A stretch of 64,000 nucleotides of DNA from Gloeomargarita sp. SRBZ-1_bins_9. Its GTDB lineage: Bacteria; Cyanobacteriota; Cyanobacteriia; Gloeomargaritales; Gloeomargaritaceae. The notes under the pieces are model-generated. The model was not told the DNA's origin. It did not search any database and was given only the letters and a program-made list of their open reading frames with translations. The DNA is taken from the NCBI GenBank assembly GCA_039794565.1, contig JAUQVX010000001.1:1-64000 (forward strand), in the 5' to 3' direction. Shown in pieces: positions 21,577 through 24,532 of this stretch; within the stretch, counting starts at the first letter, position 1; each line of letters starts with the position of its first letter. A program made the position numbers and the translations under genes.

Positions 21577-21975
21577 CTATCGCTGTCCTGTCGGCAAATG
21601 CTTAGTCAACTGTAAACGCTGGCGCCGGTCACACCACTCCACCCGGTCAAAAACCTGGTACAGGATATATAGGCCCCGGCCTGACTCCCAGGACCATTCC
21701 GGCCCCTCCGGCAAACAGGTGCAGTCGGTCGGGCAGCCCGGCCCCTGGTCCTCGATCACCCAGCACCAGCCATCCGTGCGCCCCTCATAATGCACCCGAA
21801 TCATTTTGTGGGGGTCCAGGTTATTGCCGTGTTTGGCCGCATTCACCAGCGCCTCCTGCAACCCCAACCGTACCAAAGGCGACAGTTCCGGCGGCACATC
21901 CGCCAGCAGCAACTCCAACACCGGACTGAGATACAACGTGGACGGAAAACTCAGGGTCAGTTGCCGCGGGCGCAC
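21577..21975 (-). CDS. anti-sigma-factor-type ATP-binding protein (HATPase, RsbW-like)
   Basis: A small stand-alone GHKL ATPase domain: the N-box is LGLQEALVNAAKHGN, the G1 box EDQGPGC and the G2 box ESGRGLYIL. Proteins of this kind act as serine kinases or anti-sigma factors in partner-switching systems. No anti-anti-sigma or PP2C gene is nearby. The start is uncertain: a GTG at 21975 is preceded by GGGA, while a TTG at 21996 has no ribosome site. It heads the minus-strand operon running to asnB, and its upstream region carries the direct repeats shared with the divergent parM-like gene. Confidence 0.85.
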   Translation of the reverse strand: MRPRQLTLSFPSTLYLSPVLELLLADVPPELSPLVRLGLQEALVNAAKHGNNLDPHKMIRVHYEGRTDGWCWVIEDQGPGCPTDCTCLPEGPEWSWESGRGLYILYQVFDRVEWCDRRQRLQLTKHLPTGQR

Positions 21976-21998
21976 AGGGATTGGGTCCCATAACAACA

Positions 21999-22048
21999 GG
22001 GTGCTATGCTTAGCTTAGCATTCCGGCGGCTGGGTGCTATGCTTAGCT
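21999..22048. repeat. two exact 17-bp direct repeats (parC-like or operator)
   Basis: GGGTGCTATGCTTAGCT occurs at 21999-22015 and again at 22032-22048, start-to-start 33 bp, close to three DNA turns. After the first copy, TAGCA makes a short dyad with TGCTA. The repeats fill the gap between the divergent ATPase-like gene and the parM-like gene. Iterons placed ahead of parM-parR are the centromere and operator of type II partition cassettes; two copies is few compared with plasmid parC. Confidence 0.8.
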
Positions 22049-22052
22049 GTAA

Positions 22053-23138
22053 ATGGGGTTTCCGTCTATGACCACCAGTCAATTCATTGGCTCCCCTTCC
22101 CTGTTGAGTGTGGACCTGGGACGCACCGCCATCAAAACCTGTATCAGCAGCGACCCAAACGAAGTCTTAGTTATTCCCGCTAACATTGCCAAACTCACTC
22201 CTGCTCAGGTGCGCCAGGGCCGGTTTGAAGGGGGCGACCCCCTGCGGGACATGTGGGTGGAATACCAGGGCCGCGCCTATGCCATCGGACACCTAGCTGC
22301 CGATTTTGGGGCCGGTTTAGGGGTGGGGCAGTCCAAGGTGGAGGACGCCCTGGTGAAAACCTTTGCCTGTATAGGCCATTTCGAGCTAACCGGGGACCTG
22401 GCCATTTCTTTGGGGTTGCCCTATCTATCCCAGGAGCAGTTCGACACGGAAAAACGCCAGTTGGTGGCCCAGTTGCAGGCGCCCCATGCCCTCTCCTACC
22501 GGGGACGCAATTTCACCGTCAATGTGGTAAAGGTTTGGGTCATGCCCGAGGGCTATGGCAGTTTGGTCTGGTGCCACAAGATTGAAAAAGAAATGCTGGA
22601 AAAGGAAAAAGCGGCCGGCAAAAAAACCGATGACAAATCCCTGGTCAACCTGCACGTGGCCGTGATTGACATCGGTCACCAGACCACCGACATGCTCAAG
22701 GTGGATAAGTTTCACTTCGCCCGGGGCACCTCCCGCAGCGAGCAGTTCGGCATGAGCCAGTTTTACGAGCAACTGGCTGCCCAGATCAAAGGGGCCGACA
22801 GCGAGGATTTGACCCTGATCGAGGCGGTCCATCGTCCTCCAGGACAGCGCTTCTATCGCCCGCGCGGGGAAAAACCCATTGACCTAGACGACATCCTGCC
22901 CCGCATCCGCGCCAACTTCGCTCGGGAACTCTGGGAACGGATTCGCCAGTGGCTGCCCAGCCAGGTGACCGACGTGATCATCACCGGCGGCGGCGGCGAA
23001 TTTTTCTGGCCGGATTTGGAACCCCTGCTGCGGGAATTTGGTTTGACGCCCCACCTGGCCCAACCCACCCGCACGGCCAACGCTTTGGGACAATATATCT
23101 ATGGGCAGGTGCAATTGAGTAAAGATAAAGGGGCGTAG
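22053..23138 (+). CDS. ParM/StbA-family actin-like ATPase
   Basis: A 361-residue actin-fold protein. Phosphate-1 motif SVDLGRTAIKT lies near residue 20, phosphate-2 AVIDIGHQTTD near residue 208 and the adenosine motif ITGGGGEFF near residue 310. ParM proteins polymerise with ATP to push DNA apart; this copy is chromosomal. The lysine-rich loop EKEMLEKEKAAGKKTDDK before phosphate-2 is a likely insertion. An alternative start is the ATG at 22068 (MTTSQF); neither has a strong ribosome site. The next gene starts 2 nt after its stop and encodes a ribbon-helix-helix protein, the order of parM-parR. Confidence 0.88.
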   Translation: MGFPSMTTSQFIGSPSLLSVDLGRTAIKTCISSDPNEVLVIPANIAKLTPAQVRQGRFEGGDPLRDMWVEYQGRAYAIGHLAADFGAGLGVGQSKVEDALVKTFACIGHFELTGDLAISLGLPYLSQEQFDTEKRQLVAQLQAPHALSYRGRNFTVNVVKVWVMPEGYGSLVWCHKIEKEMLEKEKAAGKKTDDKSLVNLHVAVIDIGHQTTDMLKVDKFHFARGTSRSEQFGMSQFYEQLAAQIKGADSEDLTLIEAVHRPPGQRFYRPRGEKPIDLDDILPRIRANFARELWERIRQWLPSQVTDVIITGGGGEFFWPDLEPLLREFGLTPHLAQPTRTANALGQYIYGQVQLSKDKGA

Positions 23139-23140
23139 GG

Positions 23141-23620
23141 TTGAGTAAACGGGTGAGCCGCTCGATTACCTTTTACCCGACCCCGGAGGACAACGAACTC
23201 CTGGAGGAACTGGACCGCCGGGCCGCAGCACAGCAAATCGCTTTTAGCGAGCTATGTAAGTTGGCCTTGCGGCAATTTGTCCAGGGACATCCCTACAGCG
23301 TCACCTTCGGCCCCGGGGAAAAGGCCCTGCAGGACCGGTTGGAGACGGAACTGGCGGCCCTGGGTATTACTTTCAGTGAGTGGGTCAAGCGCCAACTGGC
23401 TCAACCTGCCGACCTGGAACACCGTCTCCGGCGCCTAGAGCAAGCGGTGGCCGAATTGCAACAGCGTCCCTTGCCCCTCACCCAGGCGGACATCGAAGCC
23501 CTGATCCGGCAGCATGTGACCCGCACCCCCCAACCCAACCAACCCCCGCCACCCCCGCCTCCGGCGACTCCTGACCCCTTGATCGCTGAACTGGGTGCCC
23601 TGCTGGGGGATGATTTTTAA
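23141..23620 (+). CDS. tandem ribbon-helix-helix protein, ParR-like
   Basis: A 159-residue protein. Residues 8-49 (SITFYP then IAFSELCKLALRQ) read as a ribbon-helix-helix, and residues 53-88 (SVTFGP then ITFSEWVKRQLAQ) repeat the same pattern, so one chain may carry a fused pseudo-dimer. A coiled-coil-like segment (92-126), a proline run (132-145) and an acidic tail LIAELGALLGDDF follow. The layout of N-terminal DNA binding and C-terminal tail parallels ParR, whose tail contacts ParM filaments. TTG start with AAGGGG upstream; a GTG at 23153 is possible. Its stop overlaps the Pho box of pstB. Confidence 0.78.
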   Translation: MSKRVSRSITFYPTPEDNELLEELDRRAAAQQIAFSELCKLALRQFVQGHPYSVTFGPGEKALQDRLETELAALGITFSEWVKRQLAQPADLEHRLRRLEQAVAELQQRPLPLTQADIEALIRQHVTRTPQPNQPPPPPPPATPDPLIAELGALLGDDF

Positions 23621-23672
23621 CCTAAACTTAACCCAGACTTAACTATTTAGTGGGGTTGCGGGTTCTTATACT
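23616..23672 (+). promoter_or_regulatory. Pho box (three repeats) and -10 of pstB
   Basis: Three 8-bp repeats with exact 3-bp spacers: TTTAACCT (23616-23623), CTTAACCC (23627-23634) and CTTAACTA (23638-23645). Their 11-bp period and sequence fit the cyanobacterial SphR/PhoB site. A -10 hexamer TATACT lies at 23667-23672, about 21 bp beyond the last repeat, and no clear -35 is seen, as expected when PhoB-type activators substitute for it. It indicates induction of pstB by phosphate starvation. Confidence 0.85.
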
Positions 23673-23731: not shown

Positions 23732-24532
23732 ATGGGAGCACAGATTGGGACGCCTGATGAAGATATTGTTCTCCATGCCAAGGTGGATGCCTTTTACTAC
23801 GGTTCGTTCATGGCGCTTCGCAACATTGATTTACCGATTAAGCGTAACCGCATTACCGCCTTCATCGGACCATCGGGCTGCGGCAAGAGCACGTTGTTGC
23901 GCTGTTTCAACCGGTTGAATGATTTTATTAAAGGTACGCGTCTGGAGGGGCAGATTCTCTTCCACGGCAAAAACATTTATGACCCATCGGTGGACCCGGT
24001 GGCCCTGCGGCGGCGCATTGGCATGGTGTTCCAAAAGCCCAACCCCTTTGCCAAGAGTATTTACGAAAACATTGCCTTCGGGCCGCGCATCAACGGTTAC
24101 AAGGGGGATATGGATGAACTGGTGGAGCGGTCCTTGCGGCAGGCGGCCCTGTGGGATGAGGTGAAGGATAAATTAAAGAAACCGGGGACGGCCCTGTCGG
24201 GGGGTCAGCAGCAGCGGTTGTGTATTGCCCGGGCGGTGGCGGTGCAGCCGGAGGTGATTTTGATGGACGAACCCTGCTCGGCCCTAGACCCCATTTCCAC
24301 CCGGCGGATTGAGGACCTGATGCAGGAGCTACGGGACCTGTACACGATTGTGATCGTGACCCACAATATGCAGCAGGCGTCACGGGTGTCGGACTACACG
24401 GCCTTCTTTAACGTGGAAATGAAGGAGGGCAGCCGCACAGGGCAGTTGGTGGAATACGATGTGACGGCCAAAATCTTCCAGCAACCCAGCCAAGAAGCCA
24501 CCCAGGCCTACGTCGGCGGTCGCTTCGGTTAA
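23732..24532 (+). CDS. pstB: phosphate ABC transporter ATP-binding protein
   Basis: A 266-residue ABC ATPase specific to PstB: Walker [10 protein letters not shown] near residue 47, Q-loop [14 protein letters not shown], signature LSGGQQQR, Walker B VILMDEP and the PstB hallmark [15 protein letters not shown]. It powers high-affinity phosphate uptake by PstSCA at the cytoplasmic membrane. No pstS, pstC, pstA or phoU is adjacent, so it is a detached or extra copy. AAGGAG precedes the ATG. Confidence 0.97.

Follow-up and report, generated by a model that had tools for sequence, protein, structure and literature searches.

A chromosomal fcmB-fcmC (corM-corR) locus with a divergent FcmC-like partner in Gloeomargarita

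The window analyzed here is a stretch of 64,000 nucleotides of DNA from Gloeomargarita sp. SRBZ-1_bins_9 (contig JAUQVX010000001.1, positions 1 to 64,000). It encodes an actin-like ATPase followed on the same strand by a small partner protein, and a short upstream region carrying repeats separates this pair from a divergent gene. The features of the locus are as follows.

21577-21975, minus strand: HATPase_c_2 (RsbW/SpoIIAB-like) gene, divergent from fcmB (Pfam PF13581, 55.6 bits)
21999-22015, plus strand: 17-bp repeat copy 1, GGGTGCTATGCTTAGCT (within the conserved block 21999-22023)
22006-22021, unstranded: near-palindrome ATGCTTAGCTTAGCAT (14 symmetric positions out of 16), a candidate operator or bidirectional -10 region
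22032-22048, plus strand: 17-bp repeat copy 2, a half-site without the palindrome; matches copy 1 exactly here but is degenerate in relatives
22068-23138, plus strand: fcmB (CorM), actin-like ATPase of 356 aa (NCBIfam NF052678; PDB 9RMI match; ATPase motifs intact)
23141-23620, plus strand: fcmC-like (CorR-like) partner of 159 aa with a TTG start (NCBIfam NF052682 over the full length, below cut-off; family invariants present)
23150-23284, plus strand: RHH-like unit 1 of FcmC, residues 4-48, conserved in aligned FcmC proteins (model helices 15-31 and 35-47)
23294-23404, plus strand: RHH-like unit 2 of FcmC, residues 52-88, in Gloeomargarita only, with a profile match to unit 1 (predicted helices 61-74 and 78-87)
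23573-23617, plus strand: C-terminal tail of FcmC, DPLIAELGALLGDDF, likely FcmB-binding helix (D145 and F159 unchanged across 26 FcmC proteins)

An earlier sequence-only reading had described an actin-like ATPase gene with a second gene 2 nt later, and this arrangement is confirmed: fcmB starts at the ATG at 22068, which is kept in all relatives, rather than at 22053, and the second ORF starts at the TTG at 23141. The intergenic gap ranges from 2 to 7 nt across the genus. The expected linkage of the two genes in relatives also holds, with fcmC adjoining fcmB in all seven Gloeomargarita genomes, and a same-strand FcmC-type ORF lies downstream of fcmB at most FcmB loci examined. The locus is most likely a chromosomal fcmB-fcmC (corM-corR) operon.

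The divergent gene adjoins fcmB in every Gloeomargarita genome and is not beside it in the sister genus. Its listed ORF extends to a TTG at 21996, and the relative SKYG116 favors a GTG start near 21975. It had been described as anti-sigma-like; the HATPase_c_2 assignment stands, but the RsbW, RsbA and SpoIIAB models score far below their cut-offs. This RsbW-like gene (21577-21996) is a possible regulatory partner. On the other side of the operon, CTTAAC-containing direct repeats at 23620-23650 precede an ABC-transporter ATPase gene (23732-24532); the repeats resemble a Pho box, and the ATPase is a putative PstB.

The window actin scores 507 bits against NF052678, the NCBIfam FcmB model (“filament morphology actin-like protein”; curated cut-off 300 bits). 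Its sole PDB sequence match (E=1e-128) is the CorM filament of Anabaena, deposited as “Cryo-EM structure of the CorM filament in the presence of CorR from cyanobacterium Anabaena sp. PCC 7120” (PDB 9RMI). CorM, the member of the Anabaena pair compared here, matches the whole of the window actin; the Anabaena filament has been seen by cryo-EM, whereas Gloeomargarita FcmB is known here from its gene. With a structure predicted from 23 aligned relatives (pLDDT 80.7, pTM 0.82) as query, Foldseek again ranks 9RMI first (E=8e-42, 55% identity), ahead of every plasmid ParM. Below it come Alp7A, an archaeal actin homolog and ParM-type actins (E values of 1e-16 and weaker), with Alp7A, pSK41 ParM, R1 ParM and AlfA at about 1e-16 to 1e-11 and approximately 12-18% identity. 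In a tree of 31 FcmB proteins and five ParM-type proteins that the same search returned at low scores, all FcmB sequences fall on one side of a branch with 100/100 support. The phosphate-1, phosphate-2 and adenosine motifs (VDLGRT, DIGHQTTD and TGGGGEFF) are intact and align across the family, and omega values of 0.03-0.11 for fcmB across the genus indicate purifying selection. Judged by its sequence, the window actin is a member of the FcmB/CorM family, a chromosomal actin derived from ParM. The evidence obtained here comprises homology, gene order, conservation, chromosomal location and the intact ATPase motifs.

The partner protein is more divergent. It matches the NCBIfam FcmC model NF052682 over its full length with 55.2 bits (E=1e-14), below the curated cut-off of 90. 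The columns invariant among 26 aligned FcmC proteins are F11, D17, F35, L38, C39, K40, L43, D145 and F159, and the window protein carries both the N-terminal F..D..F..LCK..L pattern and the C-terminal D(P/S)xxxxLxxLLxDF tail of the family alignment. It is termed FcmC-like because the alignment, its position and its tail fit FcmC yet the score falls below the cut-off; in sequence terms it is a divergent counterpart of FcmC. The tail is likely to be an FcmB-binding helix, by analogy with PDB 4A62, in which ParM binds a C-terminal peptide of ParR that occupies an analogous position. The gene evolves faster than fcmB, with omega of about 0.09-0.32, still under purifying selection.

The same product had been called a DNA-binding RHH protein. 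An RHH assignment is plausible from the family alignment and the predicted two-helix pattern, but the match to Pfam RHH_5 is weak (E=0.1). The model of FcmC, of low global confidence (pTM 0.33), contains two successive two-helix units followed by a helix and a C-terminal helix; searching the PDB with FcmC, by sequence and by fold, gave no convincing match, and no solved fold was matched. In Gloeomargarita FcmC, residues 52-88 resemble unit 1 with a profile-profile probability of 96% and P=2.3e-9, a value that is optimistic because the two segments were picked by eye before the test. Of the seven genus genomes, one (G096) gives weak single-sequence support for this second RHH-like unit. The unit is absent from all other aligned FcmC proteins, those of the sister genus included. 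A divergent FcmC with a predicted second RHH-like unit, unseen in the other FcmC proteins examined, is a new feature of Gloeomargarita. Given the score below the cut-off and the extra unit, the function of FcmC may have shifted in this genus.

What is the host range of this system? FcmB has been reported as “completely absent in unicellular strains” (PMC12645912). Here, seven Gloeomargarita genomes and one from the sister genus were compared; all eight have FcmB above the cut-off, and FcmC was found in each. The closest named locus, at 95% identity, is that of Gloeomargarita sp. SKYG116. The gene is chromosomal in the genus: it lies on a 2.84-Mb contig (2,835,982 bases) of the four-contig genome G016, and G035 and G049 are single-contig genomes. 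We infer that G016 is the cultured isolate Synechococcus sp. C9, “a thermophilic unicellular cyanobacterium” (PMC9387270) whose 16S groups with Gloeomargarita (PMC10775510), and on this basis a cultured unicellular strain bears fcmB on a chromosome-size contig. The occurrence of fcmBC throughout Gloeomargarita, including a genome that is probably that of the unicellular C9, is new. FcmBC, a recently described system, has been put forward as characteristic of filamentous cyanobacteria and as a possible key to the changing cell shapes of these organisms (PMC12645912); its presence across this genus, with a genome matching C9 among the carriers, removes a strict link to filamentous forms alone. 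Bin G085 has two fcmBC loci (L023 and L024) on different contigs, one of them SKYG116-like, and is probably a strain mixture. MreB scores highly in six of the seven genus genomes, and the seventh (83% complete) has weak matches only.

Filaments of FcmB run around the cell circumference at the membrane in Nostoc punctiforme, where FcmC interacts with FcmB and is needed for its membrane localization (PMC12645912). Loss of either gene gives wider, rounder cells that are no longer rod-shaped (PMC12645912). By analogy, Gloeomargarita FcmBC is very probably a membrane-tethered actin system that helps to set cell width; filament formation, membrane tethering and the role in shape are inferred from the Nostoc and Anabaena work. 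FcmB would be an ATP-dependent actin assembling into filaments, FcmC would bind it through the conserved C-terminal tail and anchor its filaments to the cell membrane or cap them there, and the pair would constrain cell width and help to make a rod. The pair would descend from a plasmid ParMR system whose role in DNA segregation has been lost. “Another filament-based job”, offered earlier as one option for the locus, agrees with this assignment, since the actin falls in a cytoskeletal family whose Nostoc mutants change cell shape (PMC12645912). The Gloeomargarita locus shares with that of N. punctiforme the chromosomal fcmB-fcmC order, an FcmB above the cut-off, and the N-terminal motif and C-terminal tail of FcmC (PMC12645912; NF052678, NF052682). 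It differs in its unicellular host lineage, in an FcmC that scores 55 bits, lacks the Nostocales N-terminal MFQWSKK and has the second RHH-like unit, and in the conserved palindrome and RsbW-like neighbor upstream.

The upstream region had been read as carrying iterons or a parC centromere. Its two identical 17-bp repeats are real: the copies of GGGTGCTATGCTTAGCT begin 33 bp apart, and when the 250 bp preceding the actin ORF were dinucleotide-shuffled 60 times, no shuffle contained a repeat of equal length. Their conservation is unequal. Among the seven genus loci, the block around copy 1 has 23 of 25 columns invariant, compared with 97 of 182 in the neighboring coding region, whereas copy 2 has 8 of 17 and decays in relatives. 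At two loci (L019 and L020) copy 1 is set apart from the region of copy 2 by some 23 inserted bp, which hold further degenerate repeat-like pieces. Within the copy 1 block, ATGCTTAGCTTAGCAT is unchanged at the fcmBC locus in all seven genomes. Elsewhere in these genomes the 14-bp core of this palindrome recurs exactly only at the additional fcmBC locus of G085, the mixed bin; one site with a single mismatch occurs, in one genome. A genome-wide look for further repeat copies had been suggested, and a search of the 2.22-Mb genome found no other exact copy of GGGTGCTATGCTTAGCT, the next best sites having three mismatches; dispersed chromosome-anchoring sites were dropped, as none lies within two mismatches genome-wide. 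Nor does the repeat accompany the two genes wherever they are kept: the sister genus has fcmB and fcmC and neither repeat. No comparable palindrome or consistent repeat was found upstream of fcmB there or at most other FcmB loci examined, and the few that have an upstream repeat or palindrome carry sequences unrelated to the Gloeomargarita element. Iterons or a parC centromere were accordingly dropped, there being a single conserved copy, none in the sister genus and no comparable element at other FcmB loci.

These observations bear on the reading of the locus as a chromosomally encoded ParMRC system, with the repeats serving as the centromere through which the chromosome is segregated or anchored. 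That reading is very unlikely. The order of repeat, actin and RHH protein fits it, polymerizing chromosomal ParMs are known in Firmicutes (PMC12270681), and no ParB above the curated cut-off was found in the seven Gloeomargarita genomes (G000-G096), so no other partition system speaks against a segregation role. Set against this are a single conserved site in place of an array, the decay of copy 2, the lack of either in the sister genus, the position of the actin in the FcmB/CorM clade and the report that fcmB and fcmC mutants of N. punctiforme have no obvious change in nucleoid distribution (PMC12645912), which also tells against chromosome segregation as first proposed. Plasmid ParM-ParR-parC systems (R1, pSK41, AlfA and Alp7A) share the actin fold and the actin-adaptor gene order; the Gloeomargarita locus differs in being chromosomal, in having no parC array and in forming a clade apart from the sampled cyanobacterial plasmid-type ParMs. 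Neither of the type II partition hallmarks of plasmid location and multi-copy centromere repeats was found here. The chromosomal ParMs of Desulfitobacterium and Clostridium are likewise ParM-type actins on a chromosome but are from Firmicutes, lie outside the FcmB family and are of no established cellular function (PMC12270681). What survives of the proposed ParM/ParR-like cassette is an actin descended from ParM, encoded on the chromosome in a unit of two genes together with a ParR-like partner; the repeats as parC do not.

Since one site is conserved, copy 2 decays and the element is limited to the genus, a promoter or operator is preferred to a centromere array. The palindrome would be a putative genus-confined, locus-specific promoter/operator, from which fcmBC would be transcribed away from the RsbW-like gene; a promoter scan at the locus returned no sigma-70-type promoter. 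What might bind it? One tentative answer, possible if rather doubtful, is that a tandem-RHH FcmC binds the palindrome and represses fcmBC, and perhaps the divergent gene, a vestige of the circuit by which ParR acts on the parC promoter, and that the protein also works with FcmB at the membrane. The near-palindrome is strictly conserved, has no other exact site and occupies the parC position in every genus genome, and the tandem RHH-like units and the palindrome co-occur in the genus and are both missing from the sister genus. However, this co-occurrence amounts to one evolutionary event, Nostoc FcmC is membrane-associated (PMC12645912), DNA-contact residues are not confidently assignable, and another regulator or bidirectional -10 elements would explain the palindrome equally well. 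Such autoregulation is compatible with the membrane-actin explanation. An unlikely extension is an adaptor partway between a ParR that binds a centromere and one that works at the membrane. Its duplicated RHH would bind the palindrome of its own promoter, and the one protein would both control the operon and connect cortical actin filaments with a DNA site.

The origin of the locus is compatible with both vertical descent and transfer, because FcmB is patchy on the RpoB tree and the base of the FcmB tree, on which the deep placement of Gloeomargarita depends, is poorly supported. Plasmid-borne copies occur in Nostocales (46-49% identity), and three were examined, from Nostoc N6, Dolichospermum UHCC 0315A and Trichormus variabilis ATCC 29413 (L128, L129 and L130). 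They nest within chromosomal Nostocaceae FcmB and have no FcmC-like neighbor, which argues that they are derived, through apparent moves from chromosome to plasmid. An origin of FcmB from close plasmid relatives was dropped on the same grounds. That the Gloeomargarita locus is a functionless, decaying remnant of a recent horizontal acquisition is hardly credible. The patchy distribution (14 changes on the RpoB tree, at least five forced by well-supported branches) and the long Gloeomargarita stem in the FcmB tree (0.6) would suit it, but all seven genus genomes and the sister genus carry the locus with intact motifs, and purifying selection on fcmB across the genus contradicts it.

With fcmBC present across Gloeomargarita, the system can be tested in an organism that is simple and single-celled. 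Thanks to the unique palindrome and the added RHH-like unit, retention of DNA binding by a ParR-derived partner is directly testable, and an intermediate adaptor, if real, would belong to a unicellular group for which a sister relationship to plastids has been proposed. Gloeomargarita has been recovered in that position (PMC6640209), a placement that is disputed (PMC6902448), and the finding raises the question of whether a lineage near the plastid ancestor once had a second actin, FcmB.
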